Below the pieces are notes generated by a model. It was not told the DNA's origin and did not search any database. It worked only from the letters and a program-made list of their open reading frames with translations. This document shows, in pieces, positions 4,163 through 42,998 of a stretch of 43,132 bases of DNA. Position 1 is the first letter of the stretch. The number at the start of each line of letters is the position of its first letter. The stretch comes from an uncultured bacterium (GTDB lineage: Bacteria; Cyanobacteriota; Vampirovibrionia; Gastranaerophilales; Gastranaerophilaceae): positions 1-43,132 of the forward strand of contig CACZSH010000097.1 of NCBI GenBank assembly GCA_902783785.1, in the 5' to 3' direction. Both the position numbers and the translations under genes were made by a program.

Positions 4163-4177
4163 GAAAAAATTTAAACT

Positions 4178-4209
4178 AAAAAGGGCGGAGCTAAAGCTCC
4201 GCCCTTTTT
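4178..4209. terminator. Bidirectional intrinsic terminator
   Basis: A perfect 15-bp stem (GGGCGGAGCT core) with a two-base AA loop, flanked by five A on the left and five T on the right. It lies between the convergent DUF1015 and HD-GYP-like genes, so it can end transcripts from both strands. Confidence 0.93.
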
Positions 4210-4242
4210 AGCATGTATTACGATTTGCGATTTTAAATTATA

Positions 4243-5616
4243 CTAACAACCCATCAATTTGCATAAAGCCGCAACGACATCAGGGTCCCATTTAATACCG
4301 ACTTCGGATTTGATAATATCAAGAGCTTTAGCCTTATCCATAGCCTCTCTGAATGGTCTATCGGAAGTTAGAGCAGAAAATGCATCTGCAACTGCAATAA
4401 TTCTTGAGCCAAAAGGAATAGACATACCTTTTAAACCTTCAGGTTCACCTTGTCCGTTCCATCGTTCTTTATGATAGTGAATGTACGGTACAACTTCTGA
4501 TAAGAAATTAATATTCATAAGTAAATTTACACCAACATTTGGTGAATTTTGTAATTTTTCCCATTCTTCTTTGGATAATTTACCATTTCTACTGAATAAT
4601 TCTGCCGGCAATGTAATTTTACCAATATTTTGAAGCAATCCTGCATAATAAATCAAATCGCTTGTTTTTTCATTTAAACCAATTTGTTTACACAAAGCTT
4701 TTGACAAATCTGCAGTATTTTGAGAGTGATCAACTTTATATTGACCTTTAATATCAACAGCTCTAGCAAGTTGAGTAACAAATATTTGTTGTTCATCACC
4801 CAAATCGCCAATTAAAGCAGTTAATTCGGCTCTCATATGTTGCAATTCGCTAGCTTCTGCATTTTCATCTGCTAATAAATCTTGAGATTCTTCCAATATT
4901 TTTTGCAAAGACATAGATGTTGCAAATAATCTTGCTATTGATTGAACCAAATCTAAATATTCATTCTTAAACGCTTCATCTTTATAACTTTGAATGACTA
5001 TAACACCAACTTTATAAGCATTATTATTCATTGGAATAGCAGTATATAATTTAACTTTATCTTCATTCAATTCTTTTATAGGCTTAAATAAAAGATTTTT
5101 ATCTAAATTTTTAGCTTCAATAATAACTCTTTCGTTATAAGCTTTTTGAACTATAGAATCTTCCTCTAAATTATAACCAATATTATATTTATAAGCATCA
5201 TCTTCAAAATTAACAGATGAACCTACAAGAACCAAATCTTTATCTTCAACATTTAAACCCATGGCAAACTCTTGAGATAAATAGACATGACAAGCATCTA
5301 CATCTAACATTTGAGAAATTGTTTTAGCAATAGAATTATAAATAATATAATCTTCTTCAGAGTTAAACCCTAAAACGCAAAGTGTTCTATCCAAAGAATA
5401 AATATCAACAAGTTCTCTAAGCTGTTTTTTTAAATTAGCAACCTTGTCACGAGAACCAGTTGCAATTTTTTTAGCTAAATCATCAGATATAAGATGTTCA
5501 GATATAAAATCCCCTAAATTAAGAGCAAAAATTTCTTCTAATGGATCTGAATCCATAAGTTCAAAACTTCTACCAAATAAAGATGCTCCGCCATTTGCTG
5601 CTTCTTTTTCTTCCAT
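4243..5616 (-). CDS. GAF domain protein with degenerate HD-GYP domain
   Basis: A 457-residue cytoplasmic protein. Residues about 75-240 look like a GAF sensor domain, a short coiled linker follows, and residues about 285-457 are an HD-GYP domain of the type that hydrolyses cyclic di-GMP. The fold signature is clear (KERWNGQGEPEGL, SRIIAVADAFSALTSDRP), but metal ligands are missing. The HD dyad is Gln329-Asn330. The HP histidine is Ser358. The HH pair is His382-Lys383, and GYP reads GEP at 390-392. His297 and Asp411 remain. The enzyme is therefore probably inactive and may serve as a binding or signalling protein. CGAGGA precedes the ATG. A near-consensus sigma-28 promoter lies upstream, so it should be expressed with late flagellar genes. 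Confidence 0.85.
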   Translation of the reverse strand: MEEKEAANGGASLFGRSFELMDSDPLEEIFALNLGDFISEHLISDDLAKKIATGSRDKVANLKKQLRELVDIYSLDRTLCVLGFNSEEDYIIYNSIAKTISQMLDVDACHVYLSQEFAMGLNVEDKDLVLVGSSVNFEDDAYKYNIGYNLEEDSIVQKAYNERVIIEAKNLDKNLLFKPIKELNEDKVKLYTAIPMNNNAYKVGVIVIQSYKDEAFKNEYLDLVQSIARLFATSMSLQKILEESQDLLADENAEASELQHMRAELTALIGDLGDEQQIFVTQLARAVDIKGQYKVDHSQNTADLSKALCKQIGLNEKTSDLIYYAGLLQNIGKITLPAELFSRNGKLSKEEWEKLQNSPNVGVNLLMNINFLSEVVPYIHYHKERWNGQGEPEGLKGMSIPFGSRIIAVADAFSALTSDRPFREAMDKAKALDIIKSEVGIKWDPDVVAALCKLMGC

Positions 5617-5653
5617 ATAATTTTCCTCGTATTTTTATTATTATACATGCTAT

Positions 5654-5680
5654 ATATCGGCATAAAAATTATAAACTTTG
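5654..5680 (-). promoter_or_regulatory. Sigma-28 (FliA-type) promoter of the HD-GYP-like gene
   Basis: On the minus strand the sequence reads CAAAGTTT, 11 bases, GCCGATAT. The E. coli flagellar consensus is TAAAGTTT, 11 bases, GCCGATAA, so only the first and last bases differ. It lies 38 bases upstream of the ATG at 5616 and downstream of the terminator of the sigma gene, so the HD-GYP-like gene has its own flagellar-type promoter. Confidence 0.85.
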
Positions 5681-5749
5681 ATAAAATTTACAAATTTCAC
5701 AAAAAACATCAAAAATCTCATTCATTTGGAGGAGAAATATAAAACTTAT

Positions 5750-5783
5750 ACAAAAAAAGTTCTCATAAGAGAACTTTTTTTGT
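5750..5783. terminator. Intrinsic terminator of the sigma factor gene
   Basis: A perfect 15-bp stem (ACAAAAAAAGTTCTC arm) with a four-base ATAA loop. The A7 and T7 tracts are part of the stem on either side. It lies 22 bases downstream of the sigma factor stop codon on the minus strand and separates that gene from the promoter of the HD-GYP-like gene. Confidence 0.88.
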
Positions 5784-5804
5784 ATATAATCAGTAACATA
5801 AAAT

Positions 5805-6626
5805 TTAAACAATTGACTTTCTATATCTATCCACACGAGTTTCTGAAAGAATATTTTTCAATTTCATAATAGCTTGCGCATGAAGTTGTGAAACACGAGA
5901 TTCAGATACATCAATTGTGGCACCGATTTCTTTTAATGTCATATTTTCATGATAGTAAAGAACCATAATCATTCGTTCACGTTCAGGCAAACGTCTTAAA
6001 GCTCGCTCAAGCTCTTTCTTAACATCTTTTTCTTCCATTTCTTCATGAGGAGTTAAAGAACGAGTATCTTCTAATGTATCAATAATTTCCATACTATCAT
6101 CGGAAGTTCCCCTCTTGTCATATATAGAACCAACTGTTGTATCTTCAGATAGAATTTGATCAACTTTTTCTTTTTCAATACCTAATAATTCACCGACTTC
6201 TGAACTTGTTGCAGCACGTCCAAATTTTTGACGTAATTCTTCTTGTGCTTGTTTTACGTCTTTAATTTTCTTTCTTGCGCTTCTAGGTAAAAAGTCTTGT
6301 GAACGAATCTTATCGATAATATTACCTCTGATACGCATTAGAGCATATGTTTCAAATCTTGCACCTTTATCAGGGGTAAATTTTTCTACTGCATCAATTA
6401 AACCTTCTACACCATAACTTGAGATATCTTCTTCAGAAAATGTAACAGGCAACGAAACTTTTACACGATTTACAACGTATTTTGTAAGATAAATATATTG
6501 CACAATAAGAGTATCTCTGATTTTCTTGTTAGATTTATCTTCAAAATATTGATACCAAAGCTTTTCTAACTCTTCGTCAGGCAATTTTTTTATATTATTA
6601 TAACTATTGTAAATTCCCTCTGTCAT
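5805..6626 (-). CDS. fliA: FliA/WhiG-family RNA polymerase sigma factor (sigma-28)
   Basis: A 273-residue sigma-70 family protein lacking region 1. Region 2 covers roughly residues 35-105 (LIVQYIYLTKYVV, EEDISSYGVEGLIDAVEKF, FETYALMRIRGNIID). Region 3 is about 120-170 and the region 4 helix-turn-helix about 205-260 (MTLKEIGATIDVSESRVSQLHAQA). The DYLPRSxRKK-type stretch (QDFLPRSARKK) after region 2 is typical of FliA/WhiG/SigD. Such factors read TAAA/GCCGATAA promoters. Three such promoters exist in this window, one directly downstream, which supports a flagellar role. A GGGATAAAGGG ribosome site abuts the ATG. A TATAAT lies about 30 bases upstream. No anti-sigma gene adjoins it; the FlgM candidate is at 26560. 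Confidence 0.93.
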   Translation of the reverse strand: MTEGIYNSYNNIKKLPDEELEKLWYQYFEDKSNKKIRDTLIVQYIYLTKYVVNRVKVSLPVTFSEEDISSYGVEGLIDAVEKFTPDKGARFETYALMRIRGNIIDKIRSQDFLPRSARKKIKDVKQAQEELRQKFGRAATSSEVGELLGIEKEKVDQILSEDTTVGSIYDKRGTSDDSMEIIDTLEDTRSLTPHEEMEEKDVKKELERALRRLPERERMIMVLYYHENMTLKEIGATIDVSESRVSQLHAQAIMKLKNILSETRVDRYRKSIV

Positions 6627-15686: not shown

Positions 15687-16112
15687 ATGAAATTTAAAAC
15701 AACGAGATTTGGAGAAATTGATATTGACGAAGAATTAATATTCAATTTTGAATTACCAATTTTAGGCTATGAAGATAAAAGATACGTAATGATTGATGTT
15801 ACAGAAAATCCAATATTTAAATGGTTACAAGCCGTAGATACTCCTGAAGTATCTTTTCCAATAACAAATCCTGTCATTTTTGGACATGATTATGTATTTG
15901 AATTACCAACACAAGCGCAAGATGTTCTCGATATAAAAACCGCAGAAGAAGTACTTGCTTTTAATATAGCATGCATTCCTGACAAAGCTCCAAAAGATTC
16001 TACAATAAATCTTCTTGCACCACTAATCTTTAACACAAAAAATCATAAAGCTGGTCAAGTAATTCTTACTGATAGCGGATTTAGTACAAGAGAAAAATTA
16101 TTTAAAAATTAA
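15687..16112 (+). CDS. fliW: Flagellar assembly factor FliW
   Basis: A 141-residue FliW. In other bacteria FliW binds and inactivates CsrA, and flagellin competes for FliW, so that flagellin translation follows filament assembly. Family features are TRFGEIDIDEELIFNFELP at the N-terminus, FKWLQAVDTPEVSFPI in the centre and NLLAPLIFNTKNHKAGQVIL near the end. AGGAAGG precedes the ATG. csrA follows 30 bases downstream, the usual partner arrangement. No flagellin gene is in the window. Confidence 0.94.
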   Translation: MKFKTTRFGEIDIDEELIFNFELPILGYEDKRYVMIDVTENPIFKWLQAVDTPEVSFPITNPVIFGHDYVFELPTQAQDVLDIKTAEEVLAFNIACIPDKAPKDSTINLLAPLIFNTKNHKAGQVILTDSGFSTREKLFKN

Positions 16113-16142: not shown

Positions 16143-16424
16143 ATGCTAATTTTATCAAGAAAAAACGGACAAAAAATTATAATAAACGATAATATCGAAA
16201 TAACTATTGTGGAATCAAAAAACGATAATTGTAAAATTGCAATTGATGCACCACGAGATGTAAAAGTTTATAGAGAAGAAGTTTACAAACAAATAAAAAG
16301 CTCTAACCAAATGAGTACGGATTCATTAACTGATTTAAGTCAATTAGCAGACTTAATGCCAAAAACTAATGACAATAATGAACAAAAAAAGAAAACAATA
16401 ATATTCAAAAAGAAACCTGAATGA
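16143..16424 (+). CDS. csrA: Carbon storage regulator CsrA
   Basis: RNA-binding translational repressor that recognises GGA in hairpin loops. Residues 1-55 match CsrA (MLILSRKNGQKIIINDNIEI, then APRDVKVYREEVY). The protein is 93 residues, with about 35 extra residues after the core, ending in a basic stretch (KKKTIIFKKKPE). An extended C-terminus is part of the FliW contact in Bacillus-type CsrA, but this tail is longer than those I know. GAGAGAAAG precedes the ATG. The stop overlaps the next start by four bases (ATGA). Confidence 0.94.
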   Translation: MLILSRKNGQKIIINDNIEITIVESKNDNCKIAIDAPRDVKVYREEVYKQIKSSNQMSTDSLTDLSQLADLMPKTNDNNEQKKKTIIFKKKPE

Positions 16425-26559: not shown

Positions 26560-26841
26560 TTATAGTGTATAATCAGCTATAACACTTCTACCGTATTTTA
26601 ATCCATATTTTATATCTTCAGTTGATAAATCATTTTCACCTACATACTTTGCAAATTCTTTTATTTCTGAAATATTTTTATTTATCAACAGCTCATTTGT
26701 ATCTTTTAAATCAATACCATTAGTTGTTTCATCTACAACAGGCATTGCAGATTGCAATGGCTTTTGAACGGCACTAAACGCTTTTGTCGCATTTAGCATG
26801 CTTATAGGATTTGTTACTCCGCTTGTTATTCCTGATACCAT
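26560..26841 (-). CDS. Probable anti-sigma-28 factor FlgM
   Basis: A 93-residue protein lying between flgJ and flgN. In Bacillus-type flagellar operons flgM sits directly before flgN, flgK and flgL. FlgM is a small, partly disordered protein that binds sigma-28 with C-terminal helices and leaves the cell through the finished hook. Here the first 55 residues are low in structure, and the last 35 (ISEIKEFAKYVGEND, then LSTEDIKYGLKYG) could be two helices. The classic FlgM spacing of a short helix, Gly-rich turn and V-D-x-x-x-I-A is not convincing. GGTAAGG precedes the ATG. Size and position support it; sequence alone does not prove it. Confidence 0.45.
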   Translation of the reverse strand: MVSGITSGVTNPISMLNATKAFSAVQKPLQSAMPVVDETTNGIDLKDTNELLINKNISEIKEFAKYVGENDLSTEDIKYGLKYGRSVIADYTL

Positions 26842-32833: not shown

Positions 32834-33346
32834 CTAAACTTCTTTAAAAAACTTTTCATCTTTATCATCAGTATAACAACCCGCAACAGGCTCACCATTT
32901 TTCAATACTACAAATTGATTTGTTTGATTACGACCATCTGATTCTGAGAAAAACATCTTTTTTATAGGACTATTACCATCAGAAAAGTGTAACTTAACTA
33001 ACTCACAAGGGTTTTCTTTAAGATAAGAACCAAGCGTTTTTATTTCATAACCTTTTTTTAGAGTATATTTATCATTCTTATAATCAAAATAATTATTAAT
33101 CATATCTTGGGTATACCCCTTATTTAATAAAGCCTCAGCCGCTTTATCCTTATTAATACCAGCAGAATCTATTTCATATCTTGGTAAATCAACCATTGTC
33201 ATAGACAAAGTTGGACTAGAACTTTTATTAGTTTCTTCAGAAGATTTTTTATTATTTACTTTATCTACATTATTAGTTTTATTTGAATGGTTTATTTTCG
33301 AATTATGAACTAAACTTTTGAATTTCAATATTGAAGAAAACGCCAT
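32834..33346 (-). CDS. Sigma-28-controlled orphan with shared leader (copy A)
   Basis: A 170-residue protein of no known family. Residues 1-60 form a hydrophilic leader almost the same in pattern as that of the gene at 42392-42931: FSSI-KFK, then NVDK, KSS-ETN-SS, LSMT, D-P-Y-I. The remaining 110 residues (GYTQDMINNYFDYK, then FVVLKNGEPVAGCYTDD) are unrelated to the other copy. There is no Sec signal, lipobox or membrane segment. I use ATG 33346 because GGAG lies six bases before it; the longer frame to 33424 would start upstream of the promoter. A perfect sigma-28 promoter is 26 bases upstream, and it has its own terminator. Confidence 0.82.
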   Translation of the reverse strand: MAFSSILKFKSLVHNSKINHSNKTNNVDKVNNKKSSEETNKSSSPTLSMTMVDLPRYEIDSAGINKDKAAEALLNKGYTQDMINNYFDYKNDKYTLKKGYEIKTLGSYLKENPCELVKLHFSDGNSPIKKMFFSESDGRNQTNQFVVLKNGEPVAGCYTDDKDEKFFKEV

Positions 33347-33372
33347 AAAAACTCCTTTTTGTAACATATAAT

Positions 33373-33399
33373 TTATCGGCAAAAATAAGAAAAACTTTA
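33373..33399 (-). promoter_or_regulatory. Perfect sigma-28 promoter of orphan copy A
   Basis: The minus strand reads TAAAGTTT, 11 bases, GCCGATAA, identical to the E. coli FliA consensus in both boxes and spacing. The expected transcript start is near 33365, some 20 bases before the ATG at 33346. Confidence 0.93.
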
Positions 33400-33456
33400 A
33401 TATTACCGAACAAGCCATACACAAATTTTAACAAAACTTTAAATAAAGTTCTATAT

Positions 33457-41563: not shown

Positions 41564-42370
41564 ATGGGTATAGCGGCATCACAAGCAAGATTTTTACAAT
41601 GTACAGCAAAAAAATCAAATATTGAATATCAAGGTCAACAAATAAATCAAGCACGTACTATTCTTGCTAATAAATCTGCAGCAACATACAATCAAATGCT
41701 ATCTTTGAAAGTTCCAACACCACCGAGCCAAGCAGATTATACCAAAATAAAATATACAGCTACAATTGGTAGCACAAATGTTGTTTTAACTGAAGAAGTA
41801 GCTAATGAAATAAAAGCAAATATCAAAAAATCAGATAACATTGATTCTACTTATAGCGGTACAGCAAGTACTTACAATAAAGGTAAAGACACTGCAAAAA
41901 TAAAAATAGTAGTTGGTGATGAAACTAAAGAATTCTTTTTCGTTTCTCGTACAGATTCTACTGACCTTACATATTTCCCAAATAGTGTCAACACATCTAC
42001 AGGCCGTCTTTCTTCTTTGTGTTTAACGGATTCAGCTTTAACTTTTAAGACAGGGACAACTGATGAAGATAAACAAAACAATGATGCAATATATAAAAAT
42101 AATTCAATAGCTTTCACTATAAAAGAAGAAATTGATCAAGCGGCATATAATGATGCCTACAATCAATACAAATATGATCAATATGTTTACGAAAAAGAAC
42201 TGGAAGATATAAACGCACAATCATCTCTTCTGCACCAACAAGATCAAACTTTAGAATTACAACTAAAACAGCTTGATACTGAACAAAGTGCACTTAAAAC
42301 AGAATTAGAAGCTCTAGATAAAGTCATCGGTGATGATATCGAAAGCGATTATAAGACATTCGGCGGTTAA
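41564..42370 (+). CDS. Coiled-coil orphan with MGIAASQARFL N-terminus
   Basis: A 268-residue protein with three parts: an N-terminal amphipathic helix (about 1-50, MGIAASQARFLQCTAKKSN), a Thr/Ser-rich, probably beta, middle (about 55-165), and a long C-terminal coiled coil (about 180-255, QDQTLELQLKQLDTEQSALK). It ends SDYKTFGG. There is no Sec signal or membrane helix. The N- and C-terminal helices around a beta domain resemble the plan of flagellar axial proteins, though the sequence does not match any. I recall similar N-termini from gut Melainabacteria but cannot check. AAGGA precedes the ATG. Function unknown. Confidence 0.78.
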   Translation: MGIAASQARFLQCTAKKSNIEYQGQQINQARTILANKSAATYNQMLSLKVPTPPSQADYTKIKYTATIGSTNVVLTEEVANEIKANIKKSDNIDSTYSGTASTYNKGKDTAKIKIVVGDETKEFFFVSRTDSTDLTYFPNSVNTSTGRLSSLCLTDSALTFKTGTTDEDKQNNDAIYKNNSIAFTIKEEIDQAAYNDAYNQYKYDQYVYEKELEDINAQSSLLHQQDQTLELQLKQLDTEQSALKTELEALDKVIGDDIESDYKTFGG

Positions 42371-42391: not shown

Positions 42392-42931
42392 TTATCCTAA
42401 ATCTTTTATTTGTTTATCTATATCTGCGATTTTTTTGTCCAAATCTTCAATAGAATCACCATTTATTTTTATAAATGGTAATACGGACATATTTTTAAGA
42501 GTATCTCTTTTCTCTTCTAAAGCCTTTTTTACAAGCTCAAGAGATAACTTCTTTTTGCCAGTATCATTCAGTTCCTGCATTGATTCCAATTTTTGGTTAA
42601 CATCATCAAGTTCTTTCTTGAGGTCATCTTTATTTTTACCACTAATTTTTATACAAGAAGGGAAATTTTTAAATAATGAAATTGATGCTTCTAAAACTTT
42701 TTTCTTTGCTTCCAGTTCAACTCTTTCTTTTGAAACATCACTTGTACGAGAATCAGCTATTGTATAAGATGGCACATCCATCGTCGTCATAGACAATTTC
42801 ATTGCAGAACTACTATTTGTTTCTTTAGAAGACTTACTCTTATCTATTTTATCTACATTTTTTGTTCTATGAATTGATGAATTTGAATTTGTTTTTTTAA
42901 ACTTAGTTATTGAACTAAAAGATGTACTCAT
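42392..42931 (-). CDS. Sigma-28-controlled orphan with shared leader (copy B)
   Basis: A 179-residue protein of no known family. Residues 1-62 match the leader of copy A (33346): FSSI-KFK, NVDK, KSS-ETN-SS, LSMT, D-P-Y-I. The remainder is helical and consists of two tandem repeats of about 45 residues, each with a coiled region, a short hydrophobic strand (CIKISGK, then FIKINGD) and a DDL-KK or EDL-KK helix. There is no Sec signal, membrane helix or Cys apart from one in repeat 1. AAGGGG lies a few bases before the ATG. A sigma-28 promoter lies 40 bases upstream. Confidence 0.82.
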   Translation of the reverse strand: MSTSFSSITKFKKTNSNSSIHRTKNVDKIDKSKSSKETNSSSAMKLSMTTMDVPSYTIADSRTSDVSKERVELEAKKKVLEASISLFKNFPSCIKISGKNKDDLKKELDDVNQKLESMQELNDTGKKKLSLELVKKALEEKRDTLKNMSVLPFIKINGDSIEDLDKKIADIDKQIKDLG

Positions 42932-42971: not shown

Positions 42972-42998
42972 TTATCGGCAGATTTTCAGTTTTCTTTA
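42972..42998 (-). promoter_or_regulatory. Sigma-28 promoter of orphan copy B
   Basis: The minus strand reads TAAAGAAA, 11 bases, GCCGATAA: the -10 box, the spacing and the TAAAG core of the -35 box all match the E. coli FliA consensus. The ATG is 41 bases downstream. Confidence 0.9.

Follow-up and report, generated by a model that had tools for sequence, protein, structure and literature searches.

A degenerate HD-GYP protein with a predicted sigma-28 promoter is retained in Gastranaerophilales with and without flagella and is a candidate cyclic-dinucleotide receptor

The window, that is, the whole 43,132-nucleotide stretch of DNA analysed here, is one contig of a 1.78-Mb draft genome that is 97% complete and whose near relatives include many Candidatus Gastranaerophilales drafts from rumen and gut. 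Positions 4243..5616 (-) encode, from an ATG start, a 457-aa protein (hereafter, pseudo-HD-GYP protein) in which Pfam models detect a GAF domain (aa 92-234) and an HD_5 domain (aa 284-447; 134 bits). The protein comprises a conserved helical N-terminal region (aa 24-86), a GAF region (about aa 87-240), a stalk helix (about aa 241-281), and a degenerate HD-GYP domain (about aa 282-455). An AlphaFold2 model of the protein (pLDDT 75.6, pTM 0.74) has the HD_5/HD-GYP fold, with Foldseek matches to 4mcw, 9rbz, and 4r8z; the N-terminal domain modelled alone gives pLDDT 60 and pTM 0.32. The GYP loop (residues 382-397) is modelled at pLDDT <50, and the model therefore cannot be used to judge a binding pose.

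A sigma-28 (FliA/WhiG)-type promoter, CAAAGTTT-N11-GCCGATAT, lies at 5654..5680 (-), 37 bp ahead of the ATG, and matches the consensus TAAAGTTT-N11-GCCGATAA at 14 of 16 positions, a score of an order reached once in 5000 simulated 250-bp regions. Sigma-28 boxes precede 42 of 43 first-round orthologues and, with scores of at least 13/16, 64 of 68 further orthologues, against a background of about 1%. The promoter reported in a preliminary description of this DNA is thus borne out, hardly any orthologue being without it, and we consider it highly probable, from this conservation, that the gene is sigma-28-controlled. Intrinsic terminators lie downstream of the gene (4175..4212 (-)) and between it and the sigma gene upstream (5747..5786 (-)); the gene is therefore predicted to be a single-gene unit and not mere read-through from the sigma gene. 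The latter (5805..6626 (-)) encodes a FliA/WhiG-subfamily sigma factor (TIGR02479, 228.5 bits; cut-off 189.6), the presumed reader of the promoter. Co-transcription of the two genes is unlikely, given the intervening terminator and the absence of synteny: the neighbours of the pseudo-HD-GYP gene differ in almost every genome, adjacency to fliA is peculiar to the window, and no conserved operon partner was found among the orthologue loci compared. In about ten loci (L011, L014, L017, L018, L019, L020, L025, L026, L029, and L048) a convergent gene downstream encodes a compact HD-domain protein of 246-254 aa that retains HD, HH, and GYP; this convergent gene has no sigma-28 box.

The residues that define the HD-GYP active site are replaced at three motifs: the HD dyad position is Gln329-Asn330 (codons 4627..4632 (-)), the HH position is His382-Lys383 (codons 4468..4473 (-)), and the GYP position is Gly390-Glu391-Pro392 (codons 4441..4449 (-)). 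These assignments, like those of Ser358, His297, and Asp411, had been made from the single sequence and prove exact on alignments. A mere alignment shift of the HD residues is excluded: the motif is gap-free, and orthologues bearing HN align in the same register (LLHNIGQI). Alignment of homologues from six families of the order shows that HD loss is general, the aspartate being missing from all 43 first-round and about 70 further orthologues, and thus kept in none of about 110 non-identical sequences. In a set of 71 order members Asn330 is invariant (71/71) and the preceding position is Gln (56), His (8), Arg (5), Ser (1), or Leu (1), so that HD is replaced by QN, HN, RN, SN, or LN within Gastranaerophilales; the HH pair position is mostly HK, QK, or HR (His or Gln followed by Lys or Arg); the GYP tyrosine is kept in one sequence; and His297 and Asp411 are present in 67 and 68 sequences, respectively. 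Ser358, reported at the position of the HP histidine, is indeed present in the window but is atypical, with His in 58 of the 71 relatives; the near relative L049 shares the Ser, which rules out a base error, and on these alignments it is an oddity of the window's lineage. Orthologues of family f8, in a second order of the class, have GS, GT, GN, or GH at the HD position, share the N-terminal motif, and are in most cases preceded by a sigma-28-like box. Since these orthologues combine absence of HD with the same N-terminal motif, HD loss is probably older than the split of the two orders. The true HD-GYPs of the same genomes retain HD, HH, and GYP. We conclude that the pseudo-HD-GYP protein, as judged from its residues, falls outside the catalytic HD-GYP phosphodiesterases.

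DvhD of Desulfovibrio vulgaris (PDB 9rbz, 9rc0; PMC13090378) is a degenerate HD-GYP c-di-GMP receptor in which HD is SQ and HH is MN, and which has no metal, performs no hydrolysis, and binds c-di-GMP with a Kd of about 99 nM (PMC13090378). We mapped its ligand contacts onto 111 sequences of the pseudo-HD-GYP family and 26 active-like HD-GYPs. DvhD R650 corresponds to R420, present in 111/111 family sequences; it is uninformative on receptor function because it is conserved in active-like HD-GYPs too (26/26). DvhD R653 corresponds to R423, likewise 111/111 in the family, with a K/R mix in active enzymes. DvhD E668, a guanine-specificity contact (PMC13090378), corresponds to Glu438 (codon 4303..4305 (-)), and Glu occupies this position in 109 of 110 family sequences vs. 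1 of 26 active-like HD-GYPs. DvhD L577 corresponds to L347 (103/111 family sequences), and the M646 position (416) is Met or Leu in all family sequences. The two DvhD phosphate contacts are replaced: K582 by Trp352 in the window protein, and Y621 by Glu391, a position that elsewhere is variable (Thr, Ala, Val, Lys) and at which a Glu could repel a phosphate. The predicted ligand pocket thus looks half DvhD-like, and caution is called for chiefly by the altered charge at position 391. The two proteins have in common the loss of HD and HH, the fold, the base-specificity Glu, the Arg pair, and a stalk helix before the domain, whereas DvhD alone is membrane-bound, has dCache and PAS domains, belongs to a Lap-like operon, and still has GYP and Lys582, and the pseudo-HD-GYP protein alone has a GAF domain, a new N-terminal region, GEP, Trp, and a predicted single-gene sigma-28 unit, with no dCache-TM-PAS. 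By sequence, then, it has some, but not all, of the features of DvhD.

On the analogy with DvhD, we put the prospect that the pseudo-HD-GYP protein binds a cyclic dinucleotide at about even. The chief rival is a nucleotide-independent protein-binding adaptor, in which the dead domain is a scaffold only and the N-terminal region or the pseudo-HD surface engages a partner, for example the sigma factor, an anti-sigma factor, a GGDEF protein, or an export component; we regard this as possible but doubtful. Mean pairwise identity is 68% for the HD domain, 74% for its pocket half, 67% for the N-terminal motif (aa 24-86), and 41% for the GAF domain. The high identity of the N-terminal motif, far above that of the GAF domain, favours an adaptor, as do the losses of the GYP Tyr and the Lys582 equivalent, and there are precedents: PA2572, an inactive protein with YN-GYP, interacts with a chemoreceptor and influences genes for virulence and for type III secretion (PMC3411652), and the phosphodiesterase RmdB, which displaces the anti-sigma of sigma-WhiG, binds that sigma factor directly (PMC13232838). 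However, the most conserved stretch of the protein is its pseudo-active, pocket half, and Glu438 is nearly invariant though active enzymes do without it; a mere scaffold leaves both unexplained.

A third reading, in line with the preliminary description, is that the protein is an output of the flagellar checkpoint, expressed at hook completion and tuning motility or chemotaxis on c-di-GMP. The reading agrees with the sigma-28 promoter, with the window genome, which is flagellated (flgL, flgK, flgI, fliW, and csrA lie nearby), and with the presence of the gene in two orders of the class, an ancestral flagellum having been inferred from published trees for Gastranaerophilales and Vampirovibrionales (PMC4451040). 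We surveyed 192 genomes of the order, using FlgI and flagellar FlhA (>800 bits) as markers of a flagellum. FlgI is found in 70 genomes, flagellar FlhA in 70, and both in 68, leaving about 120 without them; absence of two markers from a draft is no proof for any one genome, but the pattern holds in many genomes about 99% complete. An orthologue-level pseudo-HD-GYP match (E of 1e-116 or better, vs. about 1e-46 to 1e-53 for paralogues) is present in 188 of the 192 genomes, and a FliA/WhiG sigma above the curated cut-off in 189. The gene is thus not confined to flagellated genomes, being present in about 120 without FlgI and FlhA, and the sigma-28 promoter is kept in 21 of 22 non-flagellated genomes tested. 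We conclude that, on the evidence of these genomes, gene, promoter, and sigma outlive the flagellum. Expression upon flagellar completion and a tie between ligand and motility therefore lack support as a general role, the more so because the neighbourhood is unconserved, with fliA adjacent in the window only, and because in the flagellated genus g14 about 2 kb separate the gene from the start of a second, non-flagellar export cluster. We consider a flagellar-checkpoint role unlikely. Because the "flagellar" switch is kept in relatives that lost flagella, the pseudo-HD-GYP protein probably senses something other than swimming. In the window, genes for FliW (15687-16112 (+)) and CsrA (16143-16424 (+)) adjoin, and a 93-aa gene at 26560-26841 (-), with no Pfam match, occupies the flgM position ahead of flgN, flgK, and flgL.

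All 192 genomes have an FHIPEP export gate protein, and the non-flagellated ones carry only a second, non-flagellar type. Second-type FHIPEPs are 81-90% identical between genera and about 37% identical to the genome's own FlhA; that of the window genome (L160, on contig C103) shares 82-85% identity with its counterparts in two non-flagellated genomes and one further flagellated genome, and 37-38% with the FlhA of the window genome. The gene clusters with FliE-, YscJ/FliF-, and FliH-like genes and with a gene for a 341-aa protein of no assigned family (L160:416-6461, L161:5159-11134, L162:6811-12410, and L164:9079-15189). In 11 genomes checked, FlhB is present in two copies if the genome is flagellated and in one if not, and rod-type domains, though weak, occur in non-flagellated genomes. 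The second apparatus would be either a type III secretion system that is truly non-flagellar or a basal body without a filament. Earlier authors took the leftover genes of MEL.A1 as an incomplete flagellum (PMC3787301); a literature search with most subscription journals outside its reach returned nothing on type III secretion in Gastranaerophilales. In flagellated and non-flagellated genomes alike, sigma-28 boxes precede the pseudo-HD-GYP gene and genes for small Ser/Asn-rich or coiled proteins, and from their composition we guess that these small proteins are exported. A link between the pseudo-HD-GYP protein and the second export system is at present a lead. We tentatively suggest, as a possibility with the probability against it, that the sigma factor outlived the flagellum by controlling an order-wide type III-like export, to which the dead HD-GYP, as a cyclic-dinucleotide receptor, ties the messenger.

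A further reading is that the protein still works as a phosphohydrolase, its site having been rebuilt around other residues or a single metal. PmGH of Persephonella marina (PDB 4mcw; PMC4159591), a GAF/HD-GYP c-di-GMP phosphodiesterase, shares with the pseudo-HD-GYP protein the GAF, stalk, and HD-GYP layout, and R420 and R423 match its guanine contacts R314 and K317, but only PmGH is active and has the full metal site. PmGH loses its activity when alanine replaces either HD residue, H276, H277, D183, K225, or D308 (PMC4159591). In the pseudo-HD-GYP family the counterparts of D222, D183, and D308 are missing entirely or nearly so, and that of K225 is retained by most members. Residual activity would find some support in the remaining His297 and Asp411, in His358 and His382 of most relatives, and in the strong purifying selection on the HD half (omega about 0.007-0.04); yet the bridging Asp is invariably Asn, one His of HH is Lys or Arg in most sequences, the D183 and D308 equivalents are lost, alanine at each such site kills PmGH, and DvhD, with similar losses, is inactive. 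We therefore hold a rebuilt phosphohydrolase to be highly improbable. By analogy with PmGH and DvhD, hydrolysis of c-di-GMP by the pseudo-HD-GYP protein is very unlikely, and the protein is almost certainly non-catalytic. The earlier proposal of a non-catalytic protein under a sigma-28 promoter has the support of orthologues, selection, and promoter conservation. A decaying pseudogene or misassembly, for which nothing speaks beyond the missing residues themselves, is refuted by an ORF intact in about 110 orthologues, an omega far below 1, and the kept promoter, and its probability is negligible. One draft genome, RUG14857, has two versions of the gene (L007 and L049; 83% and 93% identical to that of the window), which would be either a duplicate or a mixed bin, and the draft of L026 has the ORF in two pieces, perhaps through a sequencing error, perhaps because the gene is really broken.

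According to the reading that we prefer, the pseudo-HD-GYP protein is a receptor, soluble and free of metal, that would recognise a cyclic dinucleotide, most probably c-di-GMP, and would be made whenever FliA/WhiG is active; we find the case for and against this proposal evenly balanced. The protein would have no phosphodiesterase activity; its former substrate pocket would still hold a nucleotide, as in DvhD; binding would alter the dimer via the stalk helix, with the GAF domain as a second input; and the conserved N-terminal region would relay the signal to the sigma-28 regulon or its associated second export apparatus. That the protein acts on this sigma-28/export regulon, and not on swimming, is plausible, and we advance it with some reserve. 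The genome has messenger machinery, comprising 9 GGDEF proteins, 3 PilZ proteins, and further HD-GYPs. Against a receptor count the losses of the Y621 and K582 equivalents and the case of Bd1817 of Bdellovibrio (PDB 3tm8), likewise an inactive HD-GYP fold, for which no detectable c-di-GMP binding is reported, as cited in PMC3774798. Bd1817 differs in keeping a di-iron centre and is without the GYP tyrosine. PA2572 of Pseudomonas aeruginosa resembles the pseudo-HD-GYP protein as a non-catalytic regulator with HD Asp replaced by Asn, but has a REC domain in place of GAF, and the accessible text of PMC3411652 describes no sigma-28 link. The actinobacterial WhiG/RsiG/RmdB switch (PMC8325347, PMC13232838) likewise has a FliA/WhiG sigma, with TAAA/GCCGATAA promoters, that is non-flagellar and tied to c-di-GMP proteins, but uses a different protein (EAL/GGDEF). 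Very few catalytically dead HD-GYP proteins have a known function; among them, DvhD is the structurally proven c-di-GMP receptor. The present family is fixed across two orders of gut, rumen, and related bacteria, and its clear residue signature, Glu438 plus the Arg pair in the absence of a metal site, opens receptor function to direct test. The sigma-28 regulon and its FliA/WhiG factor stay after flagella are lost, and the "incomplete flagella" of gut bacteria such as MEL.A1 (PMC3787301) are possibly a separate export machine.

Two genes for small Ser/Lys/Asn-rich proteins preceded by sigma-28 boxes lie in the window, at 32834-33424 (-) (box 33373-33399) and 42392-42931 (-) (box 42972-42998). 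These two proteins and those of L065 and L063 begin with an FSSIxKxK-like motif and are candidate export substrates; one of the boxes of these genes is a perfect 16/16. A repeated family starting MG(I/L/M)AA(S/N)QAR, with no Pfam match, is represented in the window (41564-42370 (+)), at L160:6778-7284, and in L195 and L192, and several copies elsewhere have a sigma-28 box just upstream.
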